Of a stretch of 64,000 nucleotides of DNA, positions 47,182-64,000 are shown one piece after another. The notes beneath the pieces are model-generated. The model was not told the origin of the DNA and did not search any database. It worked only from the letters and a program-made list of their open reading frames with translations. Source of the DNA: Agromyces larvae (GTDB taxonomy: Bacteria; Actinomycetota; Actinomycetes; Actinomycetales; Microbacteriaceae); NCBI RefSeq assembly GCF_022811705.1, contig NZ_CP094528.1, positions 434,001 through 498,000 on the forward strand, in the 5' to 3' direction. Position numbers and translations under genes: made by a program. The stretch's first letter is position 1. Every line of letters starts with the position of its first letter.

Positions 47182-48171
47182 ATGGTCGACGGTCGGATCC
47201 GGGTCGCGCGCGAGCGCGGGCGCCCCGAATGGGAGGTGATCGCGGGGGTCAGGTTCGTCGTGGCGCTCGAGGCGCCCGCGCAGCCGGCCGCGGTCCGGGC
47301 GTTCATCCTCGCCGCCGGTGATCGCGACGCCACCCTCGAACAGCTCATCGCGGCCACGCCGCTGGCGGGCGAGGCGGGTGAGGGATTCGTGCTCGCGTGG
47401 TGGCCGCCCGGGACGGATCCGCTGCCCGACGTGACCGTCGTGGCGCGCGGGGCGGCCGTGGTCGACCTCGCCTCCCCGGGCGGATCCCGGCGGTTCGAGG
47501 CGCGCGAGGTCCGCCCGTGGCATCTCGCCGAGTTCGGCGACGTCGAACGGATCCGCATCAGCGGTCGCGGCGCTCCGCTCGACGGCGACGCATCGGGCGA
47601 ACTCCTCGGCGACGACGGTCGCGCCGCCGGGGTCACCACGGTCGAGTGGCGGGCCTCGCAGCACGCCCTCGAGGCCGCGCGGGCGCACGCGTGGGCCTCG
47701 CCCGAGGATGCGGCCGACACCAGCCTGCTCGCGCACGCCGCGCCGGGAACGACCGACCCGACCGACCCGGTCGAGGCGATCGAGGCGCGCACCGAACCCG
47801 TCGCGCGATTCCGGATCGGGCAGGGCCCGCCCCGGGACATCCGCTCCCGCATCGTGCTCGGCCGTCGCCCCGCCGCGCCGCGCCTGCCCGGCGACCCCGT
47901 CGAACTGGTGCGCGTGGAGGACGACCGGCGCGTGGTCTCGGCATCGCACCTCGAACTGCGCGCCGAGGGCGGGCGGGTCGTGGCGACCGATCTTCGCTCC
48001 ACGAACGGCACGATCGTCGAGTCGACCGCGCGCAGCCACCGGATGCGGGCCGGAGAGTCGATCGTGGTGCGACCGGGCACCCGGCTTCGGCTCGGAGGGG
48101 ATACCATCGTCGAGATCCTCCCTCCCCGGATCGACCGTCCCAGCGGTCTCGACAGACAGGCCCCCGCGTGA
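47182..48171 (+). CDS. FHA-domain protein heading the envelope/secretion cluster
   Basis: A 329-residue cytoplasmic protein. The N-terminal two thirds have no recognised fold (LEAPAQPAAVRAFILAAGDRDATLEQL, then WHLAEFGDVERIRISGRG). The C-terminal FHA domain (about 205-320) has SRIVLGRRPAAP, then VVSASHLELRAEGGRVVATDLRSTNGTIV, carrying the SxxH and STNGT residues that read phosphothreonine. It likely docks a partner phosphorylated by the kinase two genes downstream. The stop overlaps the GTG of the phosphatase gene. It reappears as a pattern in type VII and cell-wall regulatory loci. Confidence 0.85.
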   Translation: MVDGRIRVARERGRPEWEVIAGVRFVVALEAPAQPAAVRAFILAAGDRDATLEQLIAATPLAGEAGEGFVLAWWPPGTDPLPDVTVVARGAAVVDLASPGGSRRFEAREVRPWHLAEFGDVERIRISGRGAPLDGDASGELLGDDGRAAGVTTVEWRASQHALEAARAHAWASPEDAADTSLLAHAAPGTTDPTDPVEAIEARTEPVARFRIGQGPPRDIRSRIVLGRRPAAPRLPGDPVELVRVEDDRRVVSASHLELRAEGGRVVATDLRSTNGTIVESTARSHRMRAGESIVVRPGTRLRLGGDTIVEILPPRIDRPSGLDRQAPA

Positions 48172-48953
48172 CCCAGATCGGCAACGCCAACACGCGTCAT
48201 CGAATGACGCTGCCGGGTGGTGCGACGGTCACGCTCTCGTGGGCGGCCGAGACGCACGTGGGCCACCGCCGGGTCGTGAACGAGGACAGCTTCGTCGCGC
48301 AGGCGCCGGTGTTCGCGGTCGCCGACGGGATGGGCGGGCATGCGGCCGGCGACTTCGCGAGCGCCGCGGTCGTCACCCGCCTCGCCGAGCACGGCGGGCA
48401 GACCGTCATCGGCACGCCGGAGGTCGATCACGCGCTGCGCCTCGCGGTGCAGGACATGGGCCGCAGCACCGGGGTGACCGACGAGGGCAGCGGCACGACG
48501 GTCACCGGCGTCGGGCTGACCGAGATCTCCGGCGAACCCGCGTGGATCGTCTTCAACATCGGCGACTCGCGGGTGTACCGGCTCATCGGGGGCGTGCTCG
48601 AGCAGCTCACCGTCGACCACTCGATCGTGCAGGAGCTCGTCGACGCCGGCCAGATCACCCGCGACGAAGCCGACACGCACCCGCACTCGAACGTGATCAC
48701 GCGCGCGGTCGGGTTCCACGAGACCCCGCTGCCCGACTACCGGGCCATCGCCGTCGAGGCGGGCATGCGGCTGCTGATCTGCTCCGACGGGCTCACGAAG
48801 GAGCTGACGTCGTACGGCATCCGGCACTTCCTGATGGCCAGCCGCCGGCCCGAGCGCTCGGCGCGCGACCTGCTCGACGCGGCGCTCGGCAACGGCGGGC
48901 GCGACAATGTGACGGTCGTCGTCGTCGACGTGGTCGCGGTCGACCGCGACTGA
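48168..48953 (+). CDS. PP2C-family Ser/Thr protein phosphatase
   Basis: A 261-residue metal-dependent phosphatase. All PP2C motifs are present: RVVNEDSFV, FAVADGMGGHAAGDFAS, GSGTTVTGVGL, IVFNIGDSRVYRL, LTVDHSIVQELVDAG, LLICSDGLTKEL and GGRDNVTVVVVD. No membrane segment, unlike PstP. GTG at 48168 overlaps the FHA gene stop (GTGA). It presumably reverses phosphorylation by the adjacent kinase and sets the state of FHA-bound proteins. Confidence 0.95.
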   Translation: MTQIGNANTRHRMTLPGGATVTLSWAAETHVGHRRVVNEDSFVAQAPVFAVADGMGGHAAGDFASAAVVTRLAEHGGQTVIGTPEVDHALRLAVQDMGRSTGVTDEGSGTTVTGVGLTEISGEPAWIVFNIGDSRVYRLIGGVLEQLTVDHSIVQELVDAGQITRDEADTHPHSNVITRAVGFHETPLPDYRAIAVEAGMRLLICSDGLTKELTSYGIRHFLMASRRPERSARDLLDAALGNGGRDNVTVVVVDVVAVDRD

Positions 48954-49018
48954 GCGGGGGAGCACGCCCGCCCCGGAACCGCGATGAAACCGAGACCGGG
49001 GCTCGCAGGCGGCGTACC

Positions 49019-49024
49019 TACAAT
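49019..49024 (+). promoter_or_regulatory. Candidate -10 element upstream of the kinase gene
   Basis: TACAAT in the gap after the phosphatase stop, 70 bp before the GTG at 49095. It supports that start over an ATG at 48984 that would lie upstream of the promoter. Confidence 0.45.
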
Positions 49025-49094
49025 GGGGCGTACCGGGCCGAGGCCGGCCCCGCACGCCGTGACCCCCGGGCCCGCTGGAGTGCGTGGGAGGATC

Positions 49095-50495
49095 GTGAAC
49101 AGGCGACTGCCGTCGACGCCGCCCACCCTGCCGGGGTTCGTCTTCGTGCGCGCGCTCGGATCGGGCGGGTTCGCCGACGTGTTCTGCTACGAGCAGGACA
49201 TGCCCCGTCGGGTGGTCGCGGTGAAGGTGCTGCTCGCCGAGCTGGTCAACGACGAGGTGCGACGGATGTTCCGTGCCGAGGCCGACCTCATGGCGCAGCT
49301 GTCGAGTCATCCGTCGATCCTCACCGTCTACCAGGCCGGCGTCGCCGCCGACGGCCGGCCCTACCTCGTCATGGAGTACTGCTCGTCGACCCTCGCCGAG
49401 CGATATCGATCGGCGCCGCTGCCGATCAGCGAGGTGCTGGCCATCGGCGTCCGCATCTCGAGCGCCGTCGAGGCCGCGCACCGGCAGGGCGTGCTGCACC
49501 GCGACATCAAGCCGTCGAACATCCTCACCACCGCCTACGGGCACCCGGTGCTGGGCGACTTCGGCATCGCCGCCAGCGTGGTCGAGGGCGAGCACGGCGC
49601 GGCCGGGGTCTCGATCCCGTGGTCGGCACCCGAGGTGCTCGCCGACGATCGCGCCTCGGTGGCGAGCGAGGTCTGGTCGCTCGGCGCGACGGTGTACTCG
49701 CTGCTCGCGGGCCGGAGCCCGTTCGAGGTGCCGGGCGGGGCGAACGGGTCGGCGGCGCTCATCGCCCGCATCGAGAAGGCGCGGCTCAACCCGACGGGTC
49801 GCGCCGACGTGCCCGAACGGCTCGAGCAGGTGCTCGCCCGCGCGATGAGCCGCCGACCCGCGGAGCGCCAGGCCAGCGCGCTCGAGCTGCTCCGCGACCT
49901 GCAGGCGGTGGAGGAGGAGCTGGGGCTCTCGCAGACGCCGGGCGACCTCGAGGTGCAGGAGTGGGCGTCCGCTCCGCTCGCCGACCCCGTCGATCCCGTC
50001 GACCGGACCCGGCTGGCGCCCGCAGCCGAGCCCGGCGAGGCCGGGGGGCGGCGCGCCGAGTCGCGCGGGGCGCGGCGCTGGGTCTCCGACGGACCGGCGG
50101 ACGCGTCGATCGGCGTGCCCGCCCCGCCGTCCCGCCGCCGGCTCGGCTGGGGGGTCGCCGCGGCCCTGGCGATGCTCGTCGGGGTGATCGCCGCCGGGGC
50201 CGGGTTCTGGCTCGCGCTCGGCAGCGACGACCCGATCCCCGTGGTCGCCGACCTGCGCGCCGACGTCGACGGCACGATCGTCACGTTCGCCTGGGACGAC
50301 CCCGGCATCGACGAACGCGAGGCGTTCCTCGTGCGCGTCGAAGGACAGGACACCCCCGCCCGGCGCGAGACCGCCCTCGACGTCCCCGCCCGCGCCGGCG
50401 AGCGGCTCTGCGCGACGGTGCGGGTCACGCGCGACGGGCGCAGCGGGGCGCCGAGCGCCGAGCGCTGCGTCGAGGTCGAGGAGTCGGGCGGATGA
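49095..50495 (+). CDS. Transmembrane Ser/Thr protein kinase
   Basis: A 466-residue Hanks-type kinase. The glycine loop GSGGFADV is at 22-29, catalytic-site lysine K44 in VAVKVL, catalytic loop HRDIKPSN at 135-142 and DFG at 155-157; the APE motif reads SAPEV. The kinase domain ends near 275. A Pro/Ala-rich linker, one transmembrane helix (about 352-372) and an 85-residue extracellular domain resembling a single FN3 module follow. No PASTA repeats, so it is not PknB. It probably senses the envelope and phosphorylates FHA partners of the cluster. GTG at 49095 has GGGAGG close by; its stop overlaps the next ATG. Confidence 0.93.
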   Translation: MNRRLPSTPPTLPGFVFVRALGSGGFADVFCYEQDMPRRVVAVKVLLAELVNDEVRRMFRAEADLMAQLSSHPSILTVYQAGVAADGRPYLVMEYCSSTLAERYRSAPLPISEVLAIGVRISSAVEAAHRQGVLHRDIKPSNILTTAYGHPVLGDFGIAASVVEGEHGAAGVSIPWSAPEVLADDRASVASEVWSLGATVYSLLAGRSPFEVPGGANGSAALIARIEKARLNPTGRADVPERLEQVLARAMSRRPAERQASALELLRDLQAVEEELGLSQTPGDLEVQEWASAPLADPVDPVDRTRLAPAAEPGEAGGRRAESRGARRWVSDGPADASIGVPAPPSRRRLGWGVAAALAMLVGVIAAGAGFWLALGSDDPIPVVADLRADVDGTIVTFAWDDPGIDEREAFLVRVEGQDTPARRETALDVPARAGERLCATVRVTRDGRSGAPSAERCVEVEESGG

Positions 50496-53400
50496 GATCG
50501 CCCCGGATGCTCCGCGGCCGCCGTTCCGCCGTGCTCACCGCGACGGCCGTGCTCGTGGTGGTCGGCGCGGTCAGCGGCGCCGCGGTGGCGTCGTCCGGCT
50601 ATCGCGAGCAGGAGGTCGATCTCGGCGACGCGAGCGTCTGGGTCGTCAATGACGAACTCGGCGCGGTGGGGCGCGCCGGGACGGCGGTGGGCGAACTGGT
50701 CTCGCTCGTCGACGCCGGCGGCGATGACTCCGAGATCGTCCAGCGCGGTGCCACGGTGCTCGTGGTGGATCGGGAGAAGTCGGGCGTGGGCGTACTGGAC
50801 CCGGCCAACGCGGCCATCGTCACCACGGTGCCGCTGCCGCCCGGGCAGGCGGAGGTGAGCCTGGCGGCCGGCCGGGTGGTGGTGGTCAGCGGCGGCGCGG
50901 TCTGGTGGACCTCGATCGCCGGGTTCGCCGACTTCGATGCCGACACCGATCCGATGCTCTCGTTCGGCGCCGACGCGCAGATCAGCGTGGACGAGGCGGG
51001 CGGGCTGTTCGCGTACACGCCCTCCACCGGGCAGGTGGTCCGGGTCGACGTCACCGCGGGTGCGACGGTGACCGACACCTGGCAGCTCGACCCCGTGGAC
51101 GGCACGCCCGACGTGCAGATCAGCTCGATCGCCGACCGGTGGGTCGTCCTCGACCGGTCGGCGTCGGTCCTGCGCACCGCCGACGGGGCCGTCGACCTGG
51201 CCGAGACCGTTCGGCCGGGCGACGGGGCGGTGCTGCAACTGCCGTCGACCGTCGGCGACGCGGTCGCGGTGGCCACGCGCGAGCACCTGGTCGCCGTGCC
51301 CCTCGACGGGCAGGCCGTGCGGACGCTCGTCGCCGACCGGTCCGGGACGCCGGCGCGCCCGATCCGGCACGACGGATGCCTCCACGCGGCGTGGGCCGGC
51401 GGATCCGCCTGGCGATCGTGCGGCGACGGCGCGGTCGATCTGCCCGGCGGCGTCGAATCGGGTGCGCAGCTTTCGTTCCGCACGAACGGCCGGGCCCTCG
51501 TGTTGAACGACGCGCACTCCGGACGCAGCTGGGCCGCGGCATCCGACTACGAGCTGATCGACAACTGGGACGAGCTCGCCGACGCCATCCGCGACGACAC
51601 CACGATCGAGCAGAACGATCCCGACGTGGACCCCACCGTCGAGAAGGAGCAGCAGCCGCCGAAGGCCGAGCCCGACCGATTCGGCGCCCGGCCCGGCCGG
51701 GCGACCCTGCTGCCGGTGCTGCTCAACGACCAGGACGCGAACGCGGATGTGCTGGTGATCGACGCGATCCAGGGGGTGCTGCCCGAGGGGGCGACCGTGG
51801 TGCCGGTGCAGTCGCGTCAGCTCCTGCAGCTGCAGCTCGGCGAGGCCGTGCGCGGGGAGTTCGCCTTCGGGTACACGATCAGCGACGGGCGCGGGGCGAC
51901 CGCCTCGGCCGAGGTGACCATCACCGTGCGCGGCCCCGACGAGAACGGGCCGCCCGTGCAGGTGCGTCGCGCCGACGCCGTCGTGCAGGCCGGCGGTCGC
52001 CTGAGCCAGGCGGTCCTCGGCGAATGGATGGACCCCGACGGCGATCCGATCTACCTGCGCGAGGCGACGACGGACGCGCCCGACCGGGTCTCCTCGACCC
52101 CCGAGGGCGCGGTCGTGTTCGACGCGGACGGCGGTGCGGCGGGCTCGAAGCGCGTCGGCCTGGTCGTCTCCGACGGACGCGACGAGGGGGTGGGCGAGCT
52201 GCGCGTCGACGTGCGGGACGCGGGCGACGTCCTGCTCGTCGCCGACCCGTTCGTGGCGCTCGCGACGGCCGGCGAGGAGATCGTGCTCGAGCCGCTGCGG
52301 CACGTGCGGGGCGGGTCGGGGCATCCGCAGCTGACCGCGGTGCCCGCCAGGCCCGACGCGCGGGTCCTCGCCGACTTCGACGGCGGCACCGTGCGGTTCT
52401 CCAGCGCGACCGCGGGCACCCACTACCTCGAGTACACCGTCGTCGACGGCGATCGCACCGCGACCGGGGTCATCCGAGTCGAGGTCTCGCCGCCGCCCGA
52501 ACGCGACACCACGCCGATCACGGTGCCGCACACGGCGTTCCTGCAGACCGGGCGGGCCGGCGAGGTCGACGTGCTCGCGACCGACATCGATCCGACCGGC
52601 GGCGTGCTCGTGCTCACCACGCTGACCGCGACCGCCGAGGATCAGGGCGTGCGCGTCGAGATCGTCGACCACCGGATCCTGCGCGTCACCCTGCTGCGTC
52701 CCCTCGAAACCGGGTCGGCCGAGCTGCGCTATCGCGTGAGCAACGGCCTCGCCGACGCCGAGGGGCGGGTGGCGCTGCTCGAGGTGCCGCCGCCGCGGGT
52801 GCCCGAGCCGCCGGTCGCCGACGACGACCGGGTGTCGGCGCGGGTGGGCGACGTGGTCGACATCGACGTGCTCGCGAACGACGAGCATCCCGACGGCGAG
52901 ACGCTCACCCTCGACCCCGAGCTCGTCGTGGAGCCCGACGCCGGGCTGCTGTTCGTCTCGGGCGACCGGCTGCGCTACTTCGCCCCCGGCGAGCCCGGGC
53001 AGTACCGCGCGTCGTACAAGGTGAGCGGCCCCGACGGCCAGTTCGCGACCGCCTGGGTCGATCTGACCGTGCGAGTCGCCGATCCCGACACGAACACGAA
53101 GCCCGTGCCGCGCGAGGTCACCGCCCGCGCGTTCGCCGGCGAGACCGTTCGGATCCCCATCCCGCTGTCCGGCGTGGATCCCGACGGCGACTCGGTGGAG
53201 CTGCTCGGCCAGGTCTCGAACCCCGAGCGCGGCACGGTCGTCGAGCGCGGCGCCGGATGGCTCGACTACCGCGCCGGCGAATACTCCTCCGGCACCGACG
53301 TGTTCAGGTACGCGGTCGTCGACGCGCTCGGCGGACGCGCCGAAGGGCAGGTGCGGGTCGGCATCGCCGAACGACCCAGCGTTCCCGACCGGCCGGTCGC

Positions 53401-56371
53401 CGTCGAGGACTCCGTGCTCGTGCGGCCCGGACGCACGGTCGCCGTCCGGGTCCTCGCGAACGATTCCGATCCGGGCGGCTCGCCGCTGGTGCTCACCGGC
53501 GTCTCCGCACTGGATCCCGACACCACGGCGCGGCTCGACGGCGAGAGCCTGGTCGTGCGGCTTCCCGATCGCGAGGGGGTGTTCGGGTTCGAGTACTCGC
53601 TGCGCAACGCGAACTGGTCGACCGCGTCGGGCCATCTCACCGTGGAGACCCGGGAGGACGCGGCGCCCGCCAGGCCCGAGGCATCCGATGTCGTGCTCAC
53701 CCTGAACGACATCGTCGACCGCGACGAGGTCGATGTCGACGTGAAGGAGCAGGTGTTCCTCGCGGACGCCTCCCTCGCGCGGATGCCGGTGCGCCTGGTG
53801 CCCGGCTACGACGACGCCGCCGAGGTGCTGCCCGACGGGCGGGTCCGGGTGCAGGTGGGCGATCAGCGGCAGATCATCCCGTACGAGGTCGTGCACCCCG
53901 ACGACCCGTCGATCGGCGCATACGCGTTCATCTGGGTGCCCGGCTGCGACGACGCCATCCCGCAGCTGCGCACGGACGCACCCGAGGTGCGCGTCCAGAG
54001 CGGCGAGGAGGTGCGGATCGAGCTCGCCGACCACGTGATCGCCGCGTCCGGCCGGCCGGTGCAGGTCGCCGACCGGGCCGGGGTCCGCGCGGTGCACGGC
54101 GACGGGACCGACCTCGTGGTCGACGCGGACACCCTGCGCTACCGATCCGAGGAGGGGTACTTCGGGCCGGCGTCGATCTCGCTGACGGTGACCGACGGCG
54201 ACGGCCCCGACGACCCGACGGCCCGGACCGGGACGATCGTGATCCCGATCGTCGTCGAACCCGTCGAGGGGCAGCCGCCGTCGTTCGTCGGGCAGGTGCT
54301 CGACCTCGAGCCCGGCCAGCCGAAGACCATCGACCTGGTGCGGCTCACCACGCATCCGTACGCCCGCACGGGGGAGGGGCTGTCGTACCGCGTGATCGAC
54401 GCCTCCGAGGATTTCTCGGTGTCGCTCTCGGGGAGCCGACTGGTGATCCAGGCCGCGTCGCAGGCCGCCACCGGCACGTCGGGCCGGGTCACGATCGGCG
54501 TCTCGGCCGGCCAGGTGGCCGGAACGCCGGGCGTGATCGAACTGCACGTGGTGCCGTCCACGCGCCCGCTCGCGCGTCCCGCCGACGACGTGGCCGTCGT
54601 GGTGCGCGGCGCGACCACCCAGGTGGACGTCCTGGCCAACGACCAGCCGGGCAACCCGTTCCCGCGCGAACCGCTGCGCGTGGTCGGGCTGAGCGGCCTC
54701 GACGCGACCAACCTGCCGCGCGGCGTGCACGTGCAGCCGAGCGACGACCGGGCCACGCTCACCGTACGGGTGGACGGCGACGCCGCCCCCGGGGACACCA
54801 CGATCGGATACGTCGTCGAGGATGCCACGGGCGACCCCGCCCGTCGCGCCTGGGCGAACGTGCGCATCTCGGTCCAGGATCGCCCCGCGCCCGTCGCCGA
54901 CCTGCGGATGACCGGATTCGGCGACCGCCGCATCGACCTCGCGTTCGCGGCCGGCGTGGCGAACAACTCGCCGATCACCGGCTACCGGGTCGACCTGATC
55001 GACGTCGACACCCGCGAGCGCATCGGCGGATCGCTCTGCGAGGCGACCACCTGTTCGGCCGCGACCGCGGGCAACGGCGCCGCGAACGCGGTGATCGTGC
55101 GGGTGACGGCCCGAAACGCGATCGGCGACTCCGCACCGGTCGAGCTCGGCGGAGCGGTCTGGTCGGACGTCGTGCCGGCGGCGCCGACCGGGCTCGTCGC
55201 CCAGCCGCGCGACGGGCGGCTGCTCATCGCGTGGTCGCCCGTCGCGGTGCGCGGCGGCAGCGCGGTCAGGTCGTACGTGGTCACCGTCGCCGGGGTTCCC
55301 GTCGAGGTCGCCGCGACGGCCGCGTGCACGGCGTCGGCATGCTCGATCGAGTCGCAGGCGCTCGCGAACGGGAGCGTGGTGCCGTTCGCGGTGAGCGCAC
55401 GCAACGACGCGTACCCGGCGCTCGCGCAGTGGAGCGAGGCGAGCGGCGTCGGCACCCCGTTCGGGCGGCCGGTGGCCGCCGCCGCGAGCGCGGTCGCCGA
55501 CGATGCGAGCGGCACGGTGACGGTGTCGTGGCCGGGCTTCGAGGGCAACGGCGATCCGGTGCTCGGCTACTTCGTGCAGCGCCTCGTCTCGCCCGACGCG
55601 GTGCCGACGGGCGCCCAGACCTGCTCGGTCACGGCGCCGGCTCCGGGCACGGTGGTGCGGCCGACGAACGGAGGCGCGGTCGCCGAGACGATCGAGACCG
55701 ACGGCGCCACGCGCAGCGTCGCGTTCAGCGGTGCGGTCGGCGCACCGGGTCGGTACGGCTTCGTGGTGTGGGGCTGGAACCGGGCGGGGTGCGTGCGCGG
55801 CGACGTGGTGCAGGCGACCGTCCGCCCGGCGCCCGGCCCGGTCGGCGAGGTGTCGAGCCGGATGGACTGGCTCGCCGTGAACGACACCTGGGACCGCCGC
55901 ATCGACTCGGTGCAGGCCGGCGGCTCGCTGCTCGAGATCGTCGCGGTCGACGATCGCGGCGTGCAGATCGGCGCGCCCCGGTCGTTCGCCGGCTCGGGCT
56001 GGCTGCGCGAACTCCTGCAGCGGCCGTTCGGCGAGACCGCCCGCTTCCAGGTGCGCGCCTGCACGGTGTGGGGCAGCTGCGGACCCTGGTCGGATCCGCT
56101 GCCGACGGGGTCGTCGCCCTCGCTCACGTTCGCCCTCCCCGGCCTCACCGTGTCGGGCGACGGCCCGAGGGGCGGGGTCGTGTGGCGCTGGTCGGGCGAC
56201 CCCGGCAACTCGGGACTGCCGGCCGCGTACCGGTGCGGCGCCGAGGGCGACGACGTCGGTCGGCCGGCGCAGGGCCCGGTATCGTGCCGGATCGACGGCG
56301 CGCGTGCGAACGACCGGGTCTGGTTGGATGTCGAAGTGGCCGGCGTGACGGCGCGCAAGTGGAACCGGTGA
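50492..56371 (+). CDS. Giant Ig-like/fibronectin type III surface protein
   Basis: A 1,959-residue envelope protein. A basic N-terminus and one membrane segment (about 14-34, SAVLTATAVLVVVGAVSGAAV) serve as signal anchor. Residues about 45-370 contain repeated short beta motifs (VLVVDREKSGVGVLDP, VLRTADGAVDLAE) that suggest a beta-propeller. An acidic linker near 375-400 leads to five or six tandem Ig/cadherin-like repeats with the cue VDVLANDxDPDG (near 409, 692, 790, 985, 1377). Three or so FN3 modules follow from about 1466 (PITGYRVDLI, PAAPTGLVAQP, GNGDPVLGYFVQR). Several Cys pairs occur only in the FN3 part. Overlaps the kinase stop (ATGA); a MoxR gene follows 11 bp later. Likely a secreted scaffold or adhesin served by the cluster. 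Confidence 0.88.
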   Translation: MRSPRMLRGRRSAVLTATAVLVVVGAVSGAAVASSGYREQEVDLGDASVWVVNDELGAVGRAGTAVGELVSLVDAGGDDSEIVQRGATVLVVDREKSGVGVLDPANAAIVTTVPLPPGQAEVSLAAGRVVVVSGGAVWWTSIAGFADFDADTDPMLSFGADAQISVDEAGGLFAYTPSTGQVVRVDVTAGATVTDTWQLDPVDGTPDVQISSIADRWVVLDRSASVLRTADGAVDLAETVRPGDGAVLQLPSTVGDAVAVATREHLVAVPLDGQAVRTLVADRSGTPARPIRHDGCLHAAWAGGSAWRSCGDGAVDLPGGVESGAQLSFRTNGRALVLNDAHSGRSWAAASDYELIDNWDELADAIRDDTTIEQNDPDVDPTVEKEQQPPKAEPDRFGARPGRATLLPVLLNDQDANADVLVIDAIQGVLPEGATVVPVQSRQLLQLQLGEAVRGEFAFGYTISDGRGATASAEVTITVRGPDENGPPVQVRRADAVVQAGGRLSQAVLGEWMDPDGDPIYLREATTDAPDRVSSTPEGAVVFDADGGAAGSKRVGLVVSDGRDEGVGELRVDVRDAGDVLLVADPFVALATAGEEIVLEPLRHVRGGSGHPQLTAVPARPDARVLADFDGGTVRFSSATAGTHYLEYTVVDGDRTATGVIRVEVSPPPERDTTPITVPHTAFLQTGRAGEVDVLATDIDPTGGVLVLTTLTATAEDQGVRVEIVDHRILRVTLLRPLETGSAELRYRVSNGLADAEGRVALLEVPPPRVPEPPVADDDRVSARVGDVVDIDVLANDEHPDGETLTLDPELVVEPDAGLLFVSGDRLRYFAPGEPGQYRASYKVSGPDGQFATAWVDLTVRVADPDTNTKPVPREVTARAFAGETVRIPIPLSGVDPDGDSVELLGQVSNPERGTVVERGAGWLDYRAGEYSSGTDVFRYAVVDALGGRAEGQVRVGIAERPSVPDRPVAVEDSVLVRPGRTVAVRVLANDSDPGGSPLVLTGVSALDPDTTARLDGESLVVRLPDREGVFGFEYSLRNANWSTASGHLTVETREDAAPARPEASDVVLTLNDIVDRDEVDVDVKEQVFLADASLARMPVRLVPGYDDAAEVLPDGRVRVQVGDQRQIIPYEVVHPDDPSIGAYAFIWVPGCDDAIPQLRTDAPEVRVQSGEEVRIELADHVIAASGRPVQVADRAGVRAVHGDGTDLVVDADTLRYRSEEGYFGPASISLTVTDGDGPDDPTARTGTIVIPIVVEPVEGQPPSFVGQVLDLEPGQPKTIDLVRLTTHPYARTGEGLSYRVIDASEDFSVSLSGSRLVIQAASQAATGTSGRVTIGVSAGQVAGTPGVIELHVVPSTRPLARPADDVAVVVRGATTQVDVLANDQPGNPFPREPLRVVGLSGLDATNLPRGVHVQPSDDRATLTVRVDGDAAPGDTTIGYVVEDATGDPARRAWANVRISVQDRPAPVADLRMTGFGDRRIDLAFAAGVANNSPITGYRVDLIDVDTRERIGGSLCEATTCSAATAGNGAANAVIVRVTARNAIGDSAPVELGGAVWSDVVPAAPTGLVAQPRDGRLLIAWSPVAVRGGSAVRSYVVTVAGVPVEVAATAACTASACSIESQALANGSVVPFAVSARNDAYPALAQWSEASGVGTPFGRPVAAAASAVADDASGTVTVSWPGFEGNGDPVLGYFVQRLVSPDAVPTGAQTCSVTAPAPGTVVRPTNGGAVAETIETDGATRSVAFSGAVGAPGRYGFVVWGWNRAGCVRGDVVQATVRPAPGPVGEVSSRMDWLAVNDTWDRRIDSVQAGGSLLEIVAVDDRGVQIGAPRSFAGSGWLRELLQRPFGETARFQVRACTVWGSCGPWSDPLPTGSSPSLTFALPGLTVSGDGPRGGVVWRWSGDPGNSGLPAAYRCGAEGDDVGRPAQGPVSCRIDGARANDRVWLDVEVAGVTARKWNR

Positions 56372-56382
56372 GGAGCCGCTCG

Positions 56383-57354: not shown

Positions 57355-58655
57355 GCCACGCCCCGACCCCGGCCGGCCCGCGCGATCGGGCGCGCGAGGG
57401 CGCGCTCGCGGCGGGCATCGCGGCCGCGGTCGGGGGCGGACGGCGCCTGACGGCCGGCGCGGTGCGCGGTGGGCGGTGGGTGCGCGGCGTGGTCACGCCG
57501 GTCGGCTGGGCGGTCGCGGGCGCAGCCGTCGTGGCGCTCGTGGTCGGCTACCTGTTCGGATGGCTCGAGCCGGTGCTGATCGGCTGGGGGCTCGCGGTGG
57601 CGGCCGCGGTGGCGTCGCTGTGGCTCATCGGCCGCGGTGCGGCGTCGATCCGGCTCGAGCTGTCGACCCCGAGGGTCGCGGTCGGCGAGGCCGCCTCGGC
57701 GCGCCTGGTCGCCGAGAACCCCGCCGGGCGGCGGCTGATCGGGTTGATCGTCGAGGTGCCGGTCGGCGGGCGGATCGTCGAGCGCGTGCTGCCGGCGCTC
57801 AGTCGCGGCGGTCGGTTCGACGAGACATTCCCCATCCCGACCGAGCGCCGCGGGGTCGTGGCGGTGGGTCCGGTTCGCACCGTGCGCGCCGACCCGCTGG
57901 CCCTCGTCCGACGGGAGATCGTGTGGAGCGACCCCGAGGTGCTGCACGTGCATCCGCGGATCGCGCCGGTCGAGGCGCTCTCCAGCGGACTCATCCGCGA
58001 CCTCGAGGGCGCGCCGACCCGCGACCTGACGTCGAGCGACATCGCGTTCCACGCGCTGCGCGAGTACCAGCCGGGAGACGATCGACGGCACATCCACTGG
58101 CGCAGCTCGGCGAAGACCGGCACGTTCATGGTGCGCCAGTTCGAGCAGACGCGGCGCAGCCGCCTGCTGGTGCTGCTCGACCTGGATCGGTCGGCGTACC
58201 GCGACGACGCCGAGTTCGAGCTCGCGGTGAGCGTCGCGGGGTCGGTCGGGGTGCGTGCGATCCGCGACGCGCGCACCGTCGCCTTCGTGGTGTCGGCGGC
58301 CCGCACGGGCGGGGGCGCCTTCGACGAGCTGCCCACCGTGTCGCGCGATCGGCTGCTGGACGCCCTCTGCCTCGTCGAGGCCGACGATCGGGCGGCGCCG
58401 TTGCCCGACGTCGCCCGCGCCGTCGGCGAGGGGCTGCACGGGCTGTCGCTGGCGATCATCGCCACCGGGTCCGCGCGCGGCGTGGCGGCGGTGCGCCAGG
58501 CCGCGGTGCGGCTGCCCTCCGGCATCGAGTCGATCGGCGTGCTGTGCACCGCCGACGGCACGCCCTCGGCGCGCCAGGTGGGCGCGCTCACCGTGTTCCG
58601 AGTCGGCCGGCTCGACGACCTGCGCTCGATGCTCGCCAGATCGGCGGCGGCATGA
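57351..58655 (+). CDS. DUF58 membrane protein
   Basis: A 434-residue partner of MoxR. Two transmembrane helices lie at about 50-66 and 72-92 near the N-terminus. The DUF58 block is LREYQPGDDRRHIHWRSSAKTGTFMVRQFE at about 236-265, leading into a VWA-like fold (RLLVLLDLDRSAYRDDAEFELAVSVAGSV) with a partial MIDAS (DxDxS). GTG start overlaps the MoxR stop; its own stop overlaps the next ATG. The pairing is well known, the biochemical role is not. Confidence 0.93.
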   Translation: MSHAPTPAGPRDRAREGALAAGIAAAVGGGRRLTAGAVRGGRWVRGVVTPVGWAVAGAAVVALVVGYLFGWLEPVLIGWGLAVAAAVASLWLIGRGAASIRLELSTPRVAVGEAASARLVAENPAGRRLIGLIVEVPVGGRIVERVLPALSRGGRFDETFPIPTERRGVVAVGPVRTVRADPLALVRREIVWSDPEVLHVHPRIAPVEALSSGLIRDLEGAPTRDLTSSDIAFHALREYQPGDDRRHIHWRSSAKTGTFMVRQFEQTRRSRLLVLLDLDRSAYRDDAEFELAVSVAGSVGVRAIRDARTVAFVVSAARTGGGAFDELPTVSRDRLLDALCLVEADDRAAPLPDVARAVGEGLHGLSLAIIATGSARGVAAVRQAAVRLPSGIESIGVLCTADGTPSARQVGALTVFRVGRLDDLRSMLARSAAA

Positions 58656-61006
58656 GCTCCCGGCATCCGCGGCAGGCGGCAGCGGCGGCAGCGGCGGCGC
58701 GGTCGCGGGTGCGCGCCGCTCCGCGGCAGGGCGCCGGCGCGATCACCGTCGAGGTGCTGCTCATCGCCGGCATGATCGCGGCGGCCGCGATCCCGTGGTG
58801 GCCGGTCTACGAGAGCCCCGCGTTCGCGGTGGCGGTCGCGGTGGCGGCGGGCGCGGGTCTCGCGATCGGCGTCGCCGGTGCGCTGGCACGGTGGCCGGCC
58901 TGGCTCGTCGTAACGTCGGTCGCCGGGGCCTTCCTCGTGCTGGGCGTGCCGGCCGCCATCCCCGGTCTCGCGTTCGCGACGGTGCTGCCGAGCCCGCAGG
59001 GGCTCGTCGAGCTCGTGGTCGCGACGTGGGCGTCGTGGAAGCAGCTGGTCACCGTGGCCGTCCCGGTCGGCTCGTACCAGTCGCTGCTCGTACCGCCGTT
59101 CCTGCTGGCGCTGATCGCGGCCGCGGCCGCGGCCACGATCGCCCTGCGGTCCCGCTTCCCGGGTGCGGCGGTGCTGCCTCCGGCGGGCCTGCTCGTGGTC
59201 GGCATCGCGTTCGGCACGGTGCACGGCGAGGCGGCGTTCGAGACCGGGATCGCCTTCCTGCTGCTCGCCGGGGCCTGGCTGGTGCGGCTGTCGATCGCCC
59301 GACGGCGCGCGCTCGGGGTCGACCGGCGCTCGGTGGCGGTGATCGCCGACGCGCGCCGGGTGCTCGGTGCGGTGGCGATCGGGGCCGTGGCGGTGACGGG
59401 TGCGGGGCTCGCGGCGGCAGCGGTGCCGGCGGGTCCCCGCCAGGTGGTGCGCGCCGACCTGCAGCCGGTGTTCGATCCGCGCGATCTGCTGAGCCCGCTG
59501 GCCGCGTTCCGCACCGCGTTCGAGCCCGCGGTCGCCGACCGCCCGATGCTCGACGTGCAGGGGCTGCCCGAGGGATGGGGTCTGCGGCTCGCCTCGCTCG
59601 ACAGCTACGACGGGGTCGTGTACTCGGTCGGCGCGGGTTCGAGCGGGGCATCCGGTCGGTTCGCCCGCCTGCCGTACCGGCTCGACCAGTCGGACACGCC
59701 CGGCGACCCGGTGCGACTCGACGTGCTCGTGCGCGAGTACGACGACGTCTGGGTGCCGGGGGTCGGGCGGCTCGAACGCATCGACTTCGACGGCCCGCGC
59801 GCGGTCGAGCTCACCCAGCGGTTCGCCTACAACGACACCACCGGGACATCCGCGCTCGTGGGCGGGCTGCGTGCGGGGGACCGGTACACCGCCGAGTCGA
59901 TCGCGGCGGCGCCGCTCACCGCGGTGTCGGGATACAAGCCGGGCACCGCGGTGGTGGCGTCGGGCCCCGATCTGCCCGACTCGCTGCGCCGTGCGCTCGA
60001 GGAGTGGGCCCCGTCCACGCTGACCGAGGGGGAACGGCTCGCGGCGCTCATCGCCGGCATCCGGCGCGACGGGTACGTGAGCCACGGCCTGCCCGACGAA
60101 CCGGCGAGCCGGCCGGGCCATTCGCTCGACCGCCTCGAGGAGCTGGTGTCCGAACGGCCGATGGTCGGCGACGGCGAGCAGTACGCGGTGCTCGCGGCGC
60201 TGCTCGCTCGCGAGATCGGGTTCCCGACGCGGGTGGCGGTCGGGTACCTGGCCGCGGACGCCACGGATGCTTCGGCTCCCACGGATGCTTCGGATGCCAC
60301 GACCACGCTCGTCGCCTCCGACCTGCGGGCGTGGATCGAGGTGCAGACCTCCGACGGCGGCTGGCGCCAGGTCGACCCGAACCCCGACGCGCGCGACATC
60401 CCCGAGCGCAGCCCCGACGAGCCGACCGTCGTCTCGCGTCCGCAGTCGGTGCTCCCGCCGCCCGAGCGCCGCACGCCCGTCGAGGACCTCGACATCGATC
60501 CCGAGGGCGCCCGCGACGAGGGCGACGAGGGCGTCGACCCCTGGCCGGCCATCGCCGGGCGGATCGCCGCCGGCACGGGCATCGTGCTGCTCGCGGGGAT
60601 GTTCGTCGCCAGTCCGTTCGCGGCGATCCTCATCGCCAAGGCGCGCCGGCGACGCATCCGCCGTTCCGCCGCCGATCCCGTGAGCCGCATCGAGGGCGCG
60701 TGGGAGGAGTTCGCCGACACCGCGGTCGACCACGGCTACCTGCTGCCGCAGGGCGGCACTCGAGCCGAGCAGGCGGCCACCGTCGGCGGGCTGCTGCCGC
60801 TCGCGCTCGCGTCGGCGGTCGACCGGGCGGTGTTCGCGCCGGCCGCCGAGGTGGCCGACACGCAGGCGACCGAGGTCTGGTCGGCGGTCGACCGGCTGCG
60901 CACGGGCCTCGAACGCGACCGCGGTCGCGGTGCTCGGCTGCGAGCGCGCGTCTCCCTGCGCTCGCTCGGCGGGTACGCTGTCCCGCGGAGAGGAGGCCGC
61001 GCGTGA
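58652..61006 (+). CDS. TgpA-like transmembrane transglutaminase homologue, catalytically degenerate
   Basis: A 784-residue membrane protein with about six N-terminal helices (30-255), an extracellular segment, a transglutaminase-like domain (about 440-590), one more helix near 633-655 and a cytoplasmic DUF4129-like tail. In active family members the triad is Cys-His-Asp (G-x-C...HAW...DPT). Here the Cys position reads Gly508 (VGDGEQYAVLAALL), the His position reads Arg559 (LRAWIEV), and only Asp575 (VDPNPD) remains. The fold landmarks (FPTRVAVGYL, GGWRQVDP) are otherwise kept, so it looks like a pseudoenzyme rather than a decayed gene. An Ala/Thr/Asp insertion lies between the two sites. Coupled to its neighbours on both sides. 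Confidence 0.88.
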   Translation: MSSRHPRQAAAAAAAARSRVRAAPRQGAGAITVEVLLIAGMIAAAAIPWWPVYESPAFAVAVAVAAGAGLAIGVAGALARWPAWLVVTSVAGAFLVLGVPAAIPGLAFATVLPSPQGLVELVVATWASWKQLVTVAVPVGSYQSLLVPPFLLALIAAAAAATIALRSRFPGAAVLPPAGLLVVGIAFGTVHGEAAFETGIAFLLLAGAWLVRLSIARRRALGVDRRSVAVIADARRVLGAVAIGAVAVTGAGLAAAAVPAGPRQVVRADLQPVFDPRDLLSPLAAFRTAFEPAVADRPMLDVQGLPEGWGLRLASLDSYDGVVYSVGAGSSGASGRFARLPYRLDQSDTPGDPVRLDVLVREYDDVWVPGVGRLERIDFDGPRAVELTQRFAYNDTTGTSALVGGLRAGDRYTAESIAAAPLTAVSGYKPGTAVVASGPDLPDSLRRALEEWAPSTLTEGERLAALIAGIRRDGYVSHGLPDEPASRPGHSLDRLEELVSERPMVGDGEQYAVLAALLAREIGFPTRVAVGYLAADATDASAPTDASDATTTLVASDLRAWIEVQTSDGGWRQVDPNPDARDIPERSPDEPTVVSRPQSVLPPPERRTPVEDLDIDPEGARDEGDEGVDPWPAIAGRIAAGTGIVLLAGMFVASPFAAILIAKARRRRIRRSAADPVSRIEGAWEEFADTAVDHGYLLPQGGTRAEQAATVGGLLPLALASAVDRAVFAPAAEVADTQATEVWSAVDRLRTGLERDRGRGARLRARVSLRSLGGYAVPRRGGRA

Positions 61007-61545
61007 GGTGTCGGATCTGCACGGCCGATCTGCCCGCCGGGGCGATGTTCTGCGGTGAGTGCGGCAGTTCGACGAGCGCGACCCCCGAGTCGCGCCGCCT
61101 CGTCGATCCGCGACCGGGCGACACCACGATCCTGCACCGTTCGCCGTCCGGCGTGGTGAGCGTGTCGCTGCCGTCCACCGCCCCCGACCCGGTTGCGGTC
61201 GCGCCGCCGGCTCGGCCCGGCACGACGTTCACCCTGCGGTTCTCGACCGGCGAAGTGCGCACCGTGTTCGGCACGGGGCTGGTGGGCCGCAATCCGCTGC
61301 CGCAGCCGGGCGAGGCGTTCGATCATCTCGTGCAGATCGCCGACCGCACGCTGTCGGTGTCGAAGACGCACCTCGAGTTCGGCCAGCACGACGGCGACCT
61401 GTGGGTGGCCGACCGGTTCTCGGGCAACGGCACGATCCTGCGGCGCGGGCCCGACGGCGCGGTGCGCTGCGAGCCCGGGCGCCGGTACCTCGTGCCGCGC
61501 GGCGGGCTCGTGCAACTGGCCGAGCAGTCGTTCGAGGTGTCGTAG
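61003..61545 (+). CDS. Zinc-ribbon FHA-domain protein
   Basis: A 180-residue cytoplasmic protein. The N-terminal zinc ribbon uses C3-x2-C6 and C17-x2-C20 (CRIC, CGEC). A Pro/Thr/Val-rich linker follows, then an FHA domain at about 85-180: LVGRNPLPQPGEAFDHLVQIADRTLSVSKTHLEFGQHDGDLWVADRFSGNGTILRR, with phosphothreonine-binding Arg, SKTH and NGT. GTG at 61003 overlaps the previous stop and has AGAGGAGG 5 bp upstream. In EssC of type VIIb secretion systems FHA domains are fused to the ATPase; here FHA is a separate gene directly before the FtsK/EccC-like ATPase. Confidence 0.92.
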   Translation: MRCRICTADLPAGAMFCGECGSSTSATPESRRLVDPRPGDTTILHRSPSGVVSVSLPSTAPDPVAVAPPARPGTTFTLRFSTGEVRTVFGTGLVGRNPLPQPGEAFDHLVQIADRTLSVSKTHLEFGQHDGDLWVADRFSGNGTILRRGPDGAVRCEPGRRYLVPRGGLVQLAEQSFEVS

Positions 61546-61628
61546 CCGACTCCTCCTGCACAGCGTCGCGATCGGGCCGAGTGTCCACAGCGGGGCCGGG
61601 CGGCGTCGGGTCGGGCGGGCGGCGCCGG

Positions 61629-61634
61629 TTGACT
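61629..61634 (+). promoter_or_regulatory. -10-like element before the FtsK/EccC-like gene
   Basis: TTGACT, six bases GGCGGG, then ATG at 61641, the same GACTGGCGGGATG string as at the first gene of the cluster. It may drive a leaderless transcript, or GGCGGG may be a coincidence of local GC content. Confidence 0.3.
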
Positions 61635-61640
61635 GGCGGG

Positions 61641-64000
61641 ATGCCACGTCGACGAGCCCACTCCAACGCGGATGCGGCGACGCCCGCCGCGCTCTCGGCC
61701 GTGCCGCGCGCCGCAGGCACGCTCGCGACCGTGCCGTCGCTCGCGGCCGAGCCCGTGCTGTCGCTGCCCGCGCCGGTGCCCGAGGCGCCTCGCGCCGGGT
61801 TCCCGGTGCTCGCCACGCTCGCGCCGATCGGCGGCGCCGGAGTGCTCTGGGCGCTGACGGGGTCGACGTTCGCGCTGGTGTTCGCTGCGCTCGGGCCGCT
61901 CGCGGCGGTCGCGTCGCTGCTCGACGGGCGCCGGCAGCGGCGACGCACGCTGCGCCGCGCCGCACTCGAACGGGCGACCGCGTTCGCCGAACTCGACGAA
62001 CGCGTCCGGGCGGGGCACGACGCCGAGCGCGCCGAGGCGTGGCGGCGCGCCGGTTCGGCGCGCACCGTGCTGGCGGCGCCGCCCGGGTCCGACTGGCGCC
62101 ACCGCGACGCGGGCAGCGCGGTGCTCGGGCGAGCGGCCGGGCGCAGTGCGCTGCGGCTCGACGGCACCCCCTCGGACGACCTCGATCGTGCCGCGCTCGC
62201 GCGCGCCGCGATCTGCGACGACCTGCCGTTGGCGGCGCCCGTCGGCGACGGCATCGGATTCGTCGGGCCGATCGCGCTCGCCCGCTCGGCCGCCCGTGCC
62301 GCACTCGTGCAGGCGGCGCACCGGGCGGCGCCGGGCGCGGTGACGGTCGACCTGCCCCGCGACGGATGGTCGTGGGCGCGTGCATTGCCGCATCGCCGCG
62401 GAGACCGGCGGATCCTCGTCGTCGACGCGGCATCGCACGGGGCCGGTGCCGCCGGCGTCGGCGCGACCCTCGGCGCGACCCTCGGCGCCGGCGGCGGCGA
62501 TGCCGGCTGCATCGCCGTCGCGCCGACCGAAGCGGGCCTGCCGCCGGGTCTCGCCACCGTCCTCCGGCTGGAGTCGCCCACCGCGGCGGTGCTCGTCCGG
62601 CACGCCGGATTCGCCGATCATCGCCCGGTGGTGCCCCACCTGGTGAGCGAACGCGAGGCGGCCGAGTGGGCCCGTGCGGTCGGTCGGGCGGCCGCGACCG
62701 CCGCATCGCCCGCCGAGCCGCCCCAGTCGGTGCACTGGGGCTCCCTGCCGCAGCCGGCGGGGGAGCTCGACGGCCGCGCGCGGCTGCGAGCCGTGGTCGG
62801 ACGCAGCGCCGACGACACGGTCGAACTCGACCTGGTCGCCGACGGCCCCCACGCGCTCGTCGCGGGCACGACCGGCAGCGGCAAGAGCGAGTTCCTGCTC
62901 GCCTGGGTCGCCGCGCTCGCCGCCGCCTATCCGCCCGAGGCGGTCGCGTTCCTCCTCGTCGACTTCAAGGGCGGTGCGGCGTTCGCCCCGCTCATCGGCC
63001 TGCCGCATGTCACGGGCGTGGTCACCGACCTCGACGAGAGCGAGGCGCGGCGCGCGGTCGCGAGCCTGCGCGCCGAGCTCCGCCATCGCGAGCAGGTGCT
63101 CACGACGGCCGGGGCGCGCGACCTCACGTCGCTCGGGGCGACCACGACCCTGCCCCGGCTCGTCGTCGTGGTCGACGAGTACCAGGCGATGATCGAACGC
63201 TTCCCCGCACTCGGCGAGGTGATCGCCGACCTCGCGGCACGGGGCAGATCGCTCGGCGTGCACCTGGTGCTCGCCGCCCAGCGCCCGAACGGCGTGGTGC
63301 GCGAGGCGATCACCGCGAACTGCCCGCTGCGCATCTCGCTGCGGGTGCTCGCGGCCGCCGACAGCACCGCCGTCATCGGATCCGATCTCGCCGCCCGCCT
63401 GCCCGCCGAGGTGCCGGGCCGCGCGGTGCTGGTGCGCGGCGACGGCCGGCCGACGCCGTTCCAGTCGGCGCTCGCCGACGCGGCAGCACTCGAACGTCTG
63501 CACCTGCGTCGCGCCGGGGCCGCGCCCGCGCGCCGGCCGTGGCTGGCGCCGCTGCCGCACCGGCTCCCGGCCGATCACCCAGAGCTCGTCGCAGTGCGCC
63601 GCAGCGCCGACGGCTCCGTCGTGTTCGGTCTCGCCGACGACCCCGGCCGCCAGCGCCGGGTCGCCGCCGGATGGCACCCCGATCGCGACGGCAACCTGCT
63701 CGTCGTCGGAGCGCCGGGGTCGGGCCGCACCGGCGCCCTCGACGCGGTCGCGGACGCGTGGCGGCGCGATCGTCCCGGCGGCGAGGTCGTCGTGCTCGGC
63801 GGCCCGCGGAGCCGGCAGTGGGACACCCTGCGGAGCGAACTCGACGCGGCACGCTCGGGCGGCGGCGCCGATCGACTGCTCGTCATCGACGACCTCGACC
63901 TGCGCTTCCGCGCCTGGCCCGAACCGTACCGGCTCGAGGCGGCCGACCTCGTCGAATCCCTCACCCGGGAGGGGCGCGGGGGCGGGCTCGCCGTCGCCGC
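61641..64000 (+). CDS. FtsK/SpoIIIE (EccC/EssC-like) ATPase, 3' end outside window
   Basis: At least 786 residues are visible with no stop before the window ends. An Ala/Pro-rich N-terminus leads to two close transmembrane helices at about 53-93 (FPVLATLAPIGGAGVLWALTG, then FALVFAALGPLAAVASLL). A helical, EccC/EssC-like cytosolic segment follows with SARTVLAAPPGSDWRHRDAG. The first ATPase domain has Walker A GTTGSGKS at 409-416, the EccC/EssC hallmark VDFKGGAAF around D441, Walker B VVVVDEYQ (D512, E513) and LAAQRP. A second ATPase begins near 690 with GAPGSGRT, where the Walker lysine is Arg, so it is degenerate, as secondary ATPases in EccC/EssC often are. This points to protein export rather than DNA pumping. 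Not listed as a closed reading frame because the stop is off the window. Confidence 0.9.
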   Translation, partial: MPRRRAHSNADAATPAALSAVPRAAGTLATVPSLAAEPVLSLPAPVPEAPRAGFPVLATLAPIGGAGVLWALTGSTFALVFAALGPLAAVASLLDGRRQRRRTLRRAALERATAFAELDERVRAGHDAERAEAWRRAGSARTVLAAPPGSDWRHRDAGSAVLGRAAGRSALRLDGTPSDDLDRAALARAAICDDLPLAAPVGDGIGFVGPIALARSAARAALVQAAHRAAPGAVTVDLPRDGWSWARALPHRRGDRRILVVDAASHGAGAAGVGATLGATLGAGGGDAGCIAVAPTEAGLPPGLATVLRLESPTAAVLVRHAGFADHRPVVPHLVSEREAAEWARAVGRAAATAASPAEPPQSVHWGSLPQPAGELDGRARLRAVVGRSADDTVELDLVADGPHALVAGTTGSGKSEFLLAWVAALAAAYPPEAVAFLLVDFKGGAAFAPLIGLPHVTGVVTDLDESEARRAVASLRAELRHREQVLTTAGARDLTSLGATTTLPRLVVVVDEYQAMIERFPALGEVIADLAARGRSLGVHLVLAAQRPNGVVREAITANCPLRISLRVLAAADSTAVIGSDLAARLPAEVPGRAVLVRGDGRPTPFQSALADAAALERLHLRRAGAAPARRPWLAPLPHRLPADHPELVAVRRSADGSVVFGLADDPGRQRRVAAGWHPDRDGNLLVVGAPGSGRTGALDAVADAWRRDRPGGEVVVLGGPRSRQWDTLRSELDAARSGGGADRLLVIDDLDLRFRAWPEPYRLEAADLVESLTREGRGGGLAVA

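Follow-up and report, generated by a model that had tools for sequence, protein, structure and literature searches.

We identified, in a 64,000-nt stretch of the Agromyces larvae genome (hereafter the window; G000:C1:434001-498000, where G000 is the source genome, 4.0 Mb in a single contig), a cluster of nine plus-strand genes at window positions 47182-64766, all nine present and the last running past the window edge. We propose, with a probability of roughly 0.6, that the cluster encodes a reduced, phosphorylation-switched machine resembling type VII secretion and related to the type VII secretion system d (T7SSd); its substrate gene would have moved elsewhere, and it would include a pseudo-transglutaminase. 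The proposal builds on computed gene content and synteny, the family and fold of the ATPase and its D1 motor motifs, the loss of the transglutaminase site, a conserved threonine motif, the FHA residues, and the co-occurrence of the ATPase with a WXG100 gene next to groL. The nine genes are as follows.

47182..48171, plus strand: FHA1, an FHA-domain protein whose N-terminal part has no known fold (Pfam FHA, 2.7e-7; sequence)
48168..48953, plus strand: PP2C-type Ser/Thr phosphatase, Stp1-like (Pfam PP2C_2; NCBIfam Stp1 at 191.7 bits, below the model cut-off of 230)
49023..50495, plus strand: membrane Ser/Thr kinase (Pfam Pkinase, 7.8e-40; alternative ATG start at 48984)
50492..56371, plus strand: protein of 1,959 residues with Ig-like, cadherin-like and weak FN3 repeats (Pfam Big_9, 2.9e-64; fn3 below cut-off)
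56389..57354, plus strand: MoxR AAA+ ATPase (Pfam AAA_3, 3.1e-63; alternative starts at 56368 and 56383)
57351..58655, plus strand: DUF58 membrane protein (PF01882, 1.5e-12)
58652..61006, plus strand: TgpA-like membrane protein, the putative pseudo-transglutaminase (Pfam TgpA_N and Transglut_core)
61003..61545, plus strand: ZnFHA, a zinc-ribbon and FHA protein (PDB profile matches and predicted fold; DTTIL 19 residues past the ribbon)
61641..64766 (window part 61641..64000), plus strand: compact ATPase of predicted EccC/EssC type, 1,041 residues (Pfam FtsK_SpoIIIE), its last 766 bp beyond the window

The ATPase consists of a transmembrane (TM) region, an EccC-like N-terminal domain, a motor domain D1 (GTTGSGKS / DE), a second domain D2 and a degenerate end. 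Against NCBIfam models it scores 225 bits as EssC, 206 as EccCa, 155 as EccCb and 67 as FtsK, all under the full-length cut-offs; as a control, nine FtsK proteins from genomes of the same family score 384-426 bits as FtsK and 106-118 as EssC. The top match in a search of PDB sequences is a T. curvata protein (4nh0, EccC per the structure title), followed by EccC5. In a 46-row tree, 12 compact ATPases group together (100/99), and the nine FtsK proteins form a separate clade (100/100); the compact clade falls among type VII-like ATPases of actinobacteria, without one clear sister group. An AF2 model of the 786 ATPase residues within the window (pLDDT 85.0) also has T. curvata EccC as its best PDB fold match, with EccC of ESX-3 and ESX-5 and the B. 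subtilis T7b core (T7bCU+DUF) ranked lower. The D1 motor motifs are intact in 14/14 and 22/22 aligned rows. The preliminary description of this DNA had taken the motor for type VII-like; by profiles, tree and fold the ATPase is indeed of the EccC/EssC type, and both the tree and the FtsK control put it apart from FtsK DNA translocases.

Pfam gave FtsK/AAA-type matches only on this ATPase, and no FHA domain; compact ATPases (n=14) have 2-93 residues ahead of the TM region, upstream extensions of the open reading frame (ORF) counted. Six long non-ESX ATPases were scanned with Pfam in the same way, and FHA was found over the cut-off in four (L075, L079, L081 and L083), a weak FHA-like match only in L049, and no FHA among the 25 families listed for L078. 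One of these six N-termini, and no other, has a YukD (ubiquitin-like) match (L079:9975-10334; 15.9 bits, below the cut-off of 27), and T7SSd-like ATPases may carry their 'missing' ubiquitin-like partner as a fusion.

The preliminary description had considered that substrate genes could follow the ATPase past the window, which turned out not to be so: the DNA adjoining the ATPase past the window edge holds no WXG100, LXG, EccB, EccD or YukD gene. WXG100/ESX genes just beyond the edge are thereby ruled out; a polyamine ABC transporter lies there instead, with an asparaginase-like gene farther off. The candidate partner is a WXG100 gene far from the nine-gene cluster (G000:C1:1898061-1898345), between a sensor kinase gene and groL. 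It is the lone one at 1.898 Mb among six WXG100 matches over the cut-off in the source genome, the others being three at 2.178 Mb, adjoining a 1,450-residue ATPase and a polymorphic-toxin-like gene, and two at 3.687 Mb, within an ESX-type locus that also encodes EccB and an EccD-like protein.

We then searched 120 Microbacteriaceae genomes and picked 20 with a single ATPase match, in which the compact ATPase is the sole match to a long type VII ATPase query at 1e-30. In each of the 20, a single WXG100 passes the cut-off. The order response regulator, sensor kinase, WXG100 and convergent groL was observed in 20/20 contexts (L089-L108, comprising 15 of the picked genomes, the source genome and four genomes with further type VII ATPases). 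Small-genome contexts have the four-gene order in 8/10 (G030 is without a groL match, and G067 without regulator and kinase matches), and G066 and G039 have the full order as well. Eight WXG100 contexts in seven genomes without the compact ATPase do not show the groL arrangement. In the 20 aligned groL-linked WXG100 proteins, Tyr83 and Glu87 (YxxxE) are invariant; YxxxD/E is an export motif. We note that in one context (L089:3407-6352) the WXG100 gene comes directly after the response regulator and sensor kinase genes, a two-component pair that might regulate the system.

A profile of the groL-linked WXG100 (A2) is bimodal over the 120 genomes, with 86 at 98.5 bits or more and the next at 59.7. 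The compact ATPase was called by a hand-made rule: a top match scoring 239 bits or more (67 genomes), plus 12 ORFs of 564-1,114 residues judged compact and 6 small-genome ORFs of about 320-710 residues. By this rule 84 genomes have both genes, 1 the ATPase only, 2 the WXG100 only and 33 neither, so that 84/87 genomes with either gene carry both; these counts and the Fisher values ignore kinship. Both genes also persist in six small genomes in which the envelope genes are gone from the ATPase locus (G010, G092, G067, G027, G030 and G104), and G030 has a ZnFHA-like gene in addition to the two.

The source genome holds three type VII-type ATPases, because an ESX-type one adds to the compact ATPase and a second one. 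The second type VII locus (L049; G000:C1:2168001-2188000) includes the 1,450-residue ATPase with its weak N-terminal FHA-like match, a zinc-ribbon/FHA protein and two or more WXG100 genes, together with a polymorphic-toxin-like gene of 1,789 residues with Ntox15 and Gln_amidase domains. The third, ESX-type locus (L050; G000:C1:3681001-3701000) includes EccB over the cut-off, an EccC of 1,326 residues and WXG100 genes; its EccD-like protein (3.68-3.70 Mb) scores 23.1 bits, below the cut-off of 30.

ATPase matches at 1e-20 were found in 112/120 of the Microbacteriaceae genomes, and are of two types, compact (about 1,000 residues) and long (about 1,500 residues). We fetched 18 compact loci with their upstream DNA (hand-chosen and mostly top-scoring, not random): 10/18 have all nine genes in order, one has eight, and one shows six before the fetched DNA ends. 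The remaining six are reduced, to FHA1-PP2C-ZnFHA-ATPase (one), PP2C-ZnFHA-ATPase (one) or PP2C-ATPase (four). Since the same order recurs in other genomes, the nine-gene cluster is not a chance arrangement, and the synteny between the FHA/kinase half and the MoxR-ATPase half on which the preliminary description relied is kept in related genomes. Among 80 named loci listed (flank up to 10 kb), 46 were judged compact; 20/46 have the Ig protein, MoxR, DUF58 and the transglutaminase-like gene ahead of the ATPase (17 of these with ZnFHA), 21/46 have PP2C only (19 Microbacterium as titled, one Plantibacter and one metagenome-assembled genome of Mycetocola), and 3 have PP2C and ZnFHA (Cryobacterium). 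Two more lie on short contigs, one with the transglutaminase-like gene and ZnFHA and one with none of the partner genes. The named and unnamed sets overlap by at least one genome (L065 and L159).

Among small genomes, some have the ATPase alone or ZnFHA and the ATPase, and one (G059) retains the kinase, the ATPase and the cluster genes between them. The outer neighbours of one reduced locus (L054), as read from the sequence, are of the same kinds as at the window (an aminotransferase and an asparaginase-like gene), which suggests that this locus arose by deletion in place. The four modules that had been described as tied together do share a joint order, and are not inseparable, because in many relatives the locus has lost the kinase, the Ig protein and the MoxR-DUF58-transglutaminase-like trio and kept PP2C and the ATPase. 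Genomes with such reduced loci must do without these lost genes, which then cannot be essential there, unless they are encoded at another site.

Within the window cluster, the genes mostly overlap as first described: stop/start overlaps are found at five joins (FHA/PP2C, kinase/Ig, MoxR/DUF58, DUF58/transglutaminase-like and transglutaminase-like/second FHA), and at a sixth (Ig/MoxR) provided that MoxR starts at 56368. The phosphorylation module (two FHA proteins, PP2C and a membrane kinase) holds up by Pfam and motifs, with the second FHA found by profile and fold. Reading of the sequence shows the phosphothreonine-binding residues GRRP, SASH and STNG in FHA1, intact DGMGGH and RDN in PP2C, and VAVK, HRDIKPSN and DFG in the kinase, which has a single TM segment by hydropathy (residues 381-399); the minus-strand gene upstream of the cluster reads as an aminotransferase, and the names of the genes 3' of the ATPase were read in the same way. 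For the 1,959-residue protein, called Ig-like/FN3 before, the size and the Ig repeats stand; it is composed mainly of bacterial Ig/cadherin-like repeats, with FN3 only below the Pfam cut-off and toward the C-terminus. Simple hydropathy shows its N-terminal signal/TM segment and no C-terminal one, and its 358-residue N-terminal stretch has no match among PDB sequences. The closest named relatives among the matches listed for the transglutaminase-like protein and the ATPase are Agromyces (86% identity to the A. intestinalis transglutaminase-like protein).

The families of the MoxR-DUF58-transglutaminase-like trio are confirmed by Pfam, and the third member is very probably not an enzyme, judging from its active-site residues. 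In the window protein, Gly508 occupies the position of the catalytic Cys and Arg559 that of the His; among 42 aligned cluster proteins (which contain at least one repeated genome), Cys is found in 0/42 (A, G, Q, D or E instead), His in 4/42 and Asp in 38/42. In the 120 close homologues listed of 317 found (the window protein included; Agromyces wherever a source is named), the Cys position is Gly in 120/120. The cluster protein shares the TgpA_N and Transglut_core architecture with TgpA and differs from the solved TgpA (PDB 6g49), which has Cys and His at the matching positions (alignment weak, E 0.089), in that both are replaced. The name 'transglutaminase' is thus probably misleading here. 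An active transglutaminase that cross-links surface proteins had been considered, and is weakened by the loss of these residues.

ZnFHA has no Pfam match at 1e-3. Its best profile match in PDB is ArnA (about 7e-11), with OdhI at 0.0042, and its predicted fold, that of an FHA domain, matches FhaA, ArnA, OdhI and GarA; profile and fold matches together suggest a regulatory FHA. The FHA signature residues of the phosphothreonine site are invariant in 17/17 proteins, and a DTxx[ILV] threonine motif lies within 40 residues past the ribbon in 28/36, with 1.3 expected from shuffled linkers (because the proteins are related, this excess shows conservation only). GarA and OdhI have an ETTS-type motif that, once phosphorylated, is bound in cis by their own FHA domain, and ArnA is a regulator of the archaellum. 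ZnFHA resembles GarA/OdhI in having a conserved Thr motif N-terminal to an FHA with an intact phosphothreonine site, and differs by its added N-terminal zinc ribbon; it shares the zinc-ribbon and FHA layout with ArnA, whereas its genomic context is different, with no vWA partner gene at the nine-gene cluster. The binding residues are intact, and gating of the ATPase by FHA binding to a partner, as proposed earlier, is plausible.

The same gene families are also found beside long ATPases in seven loci, six in other families of the same order (L069, L073, L075, L079, L081 and L083) and one in Microbacteriaceae (L128), arranged either as IG-MoxR-DUF58-TGL-ATPase or as DUF58/TGL-ZnFHA-PP2C-FHA-kinase-ATPase (IG and TGL, the Ig and transglutaminase-like genes). 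Small ORFs that read as WXG100-like adjoin the ATPase in L073, L075, L079, L081 and L083. The trio was not seen in the other 14/20 order-level loci (20 kb fetched for each); as it is present in some of these loci and not in 14/20, it is a recurrent, not a constant, neighbour of type VII-like motors. One locus without the trio (L078), as read from its sequence, has a kinase, a small TM protein, a large protein, the ATPase, an FHA gene and a WXG100-like gene in succession, which is the T7SSd order given by Garrett et al. Actinokineospora enzanensis (L225, 13211-17405) has the trio about 2.4 kb downstream of a long type VII-type ATPase; its transglutaminase-like protein also is without the catalytic Cys and His, so a degenerate site may not be special to the clusters described here. 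The trio beside a type VII-like motor had been singled out as the closest thing to an undescribed system: in the literature available to our search no link between the two was found, and the pairing is not confined to this cluster, since long FHA-bearing ATPases have it too.

T7SSd was described by Garrett, Higginson and Palmer in 2024 (PMC11217815). Going by the available part of that paper, the cluster shares with T7SSd an EccC/EssC-type ATPase, a membrane Ser/Thr kinase (TsdD), a very large, TsdI-like Ig protein predicted to be exported, FHA domains with intact phosphothreonine residues, and occurrence in Actinomycetota. By the same account, the TsdC ATPase has an N-terminal FHA whereas the cluster has FHA on separate proteins; the nine-gene locus has no TsdA WXG100 gene and no TsdH (a small single-TM protein, for which there is no room between the nine genes, the rest of the genome not having been searched); TsdI has a signal peptide and a C-terminal TM segment, the latter not seen by simple hydropathy in the cluster Ig protein; and the cluster adds PP2C, two FHA proteins and the trio. 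MoxR, DUF58 and transglutaminase are not mentioned in the available main text of the T7SSd paper. In contrast to T7SSa (ESX), there is no EccB, EccD or MycP at the nine-gene locus. By its anatomy the cluster thus looks type VII-like, and not like T7SSd as defined, given the ATPase without FHA, the locus without WXG100 and the missing TsdH.

By gene order, the cluster also resembles the PFNA operon of bifidobacteria (PMC8430577, PMC6803598), which in the available texts has the same order of kinase, FN3/Ig, MoxR, DUF58 and transglutaminase-like genes, plus PP2C and FHA genes, and is interpreted there as host immune sensing. The main texts of these two papers, as far as available, do not mention FtsK, type VII or WXG100, nor does PMC8430577 mention EccC. 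The available parts of these papers (PMC11217815, PMC8430577, PMC6803598) deal with T7SSd and with the PFNA operon separately.

Several observations weigh against a secretion machine that exports the groL-linked WXG100. No WXG100 is encoded at the nine-gene locus, and this WXG100 could serve the two other type VII loci of the source genome instead. The query used to pick the 20 genomes could miss a distant ESX-type EccC, and 20/86 WXG100-positive genomes supplied the profile's own rows. With a strict ATPase rule the counts become 67 with both, 0 with the ATPase only, 19 with the WXG100 only and 34 with neither; the six smallest ATPases were added to the count when the WXG100 results were already known, three on matches of just 26-45 bits. 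G066 (97% complete) and G039 (83%) have the groL-linked WXG100 without the compact ATPase, and G061 (75%) shows the reverse. (G039 has no FtsK match either and is only 83% complete, so its assembly may lack the region.) A kinship check used an FtsK tree of 23 genomes, in which the well-supported independent pairs numbered just 2, too few to test, and the co-occurrence could reflect few evolutionary events. In addition, the full Thr motif is absent in 8/36 ZnFHA proteins, and the reduced loci are without the kinase, the Ig protein and the trio.

Part of this evidence would also fit a machine for envelope assembly under phosphorylation control. Its EccC-like ATPase would have been turned to another task, such as moving or energising parts of the cell wall or surface, and would export no WXG100; the groL-linked one would be a separate ancestral gene. 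The Ig protein and the MoxR trio suggest envelope work, the locus lacks a WXG100, and G066 and G039 keep theirs without the ATPase; yet a single WXG100 is retained in every one of the 20 compact-only genomes, the two genes are found together in 84/87, and both persist in the six small genomes whose locus has lost the envelope genes. We regard this alternative as unlikely, though it deserves to be kept in mind. It is more improbable still that the two halves are functionally unrelated neighbours, with a kinase/Ig/MoxR envelope cluster abutting a PP2C-ATPase pair by chance: the 21 named loci with only PP2C and the ATPase within 10 kb upstream would fit, but the nine-gene joint order in 10/18 loci and the same families beside long type VII-like ATPases at seven other loci argue against it. 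The ATPase as an FtsK/SpoIIIE-type DNA translocase, a reading that its Pfam family name and the FtsK motor folds among the structural matches of its model might suggest, is hardly credible, and was rejected on the profile scores (reversed in true FtsK proteins) and the tree, with the EccC-type N-terminal part and the separate FtsK encoded elsewhere in the 9 family genomes checked pointing the same way.

Under the secretion reading that we prefer, the compact ATPase would be the motor, and the large Ig-repeat protein would span or decorate the envelope. MoxR, DUF58 and the pseudo-transglutaminase may form a remodelling or assembly scaffold for membrane or surface parts. A phosphothreonine, probably on the DTxx[ILV] Thr of ZnFHA, would be written by the kinase and erased by PP2C; the FHA of phosphorylated ZnFHA would be occupied in cis (as in GarA/OdhI) or in trans, and this could alter how ZnFHA interacts with the motor. 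The exported partner, presumably in contact with the ATPase, would be the unlinked groL-linked WXG100.

That this is an overlooked type VII branch across Microbacteriaceae, with a compact motor, a WXG100 fixed beside groL, the FHA moved onto a GarA-like switch protein and a MoxR-DUF58-pseudo-transglutaminase scaffold, we put forward tentatively, at slightly less than even odds. Pontimonas salivibrio, with a genome of 1,760,810 bp, is stated in the available part of PMC6106888 to have no type VII systems; if the proposal is true, genomes declared free of type VII secretion, such as this one, would carry such a system, and T7SSd and the bifidobacterial PFNA operon would be joined as one kind of machine. 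The compact ATPase and the groL-linked WXG100 offer a partner pair to test in a family where locus-based searches for type VII secretion can miss the system, and within the family the cluster can be followed as it shrinks, by stages, from nine genes to a lone motor gene. A concrete phospho-switch is suggested, and the PFNA operon and the 'transglutaminases' of the trio are open to a new reading.

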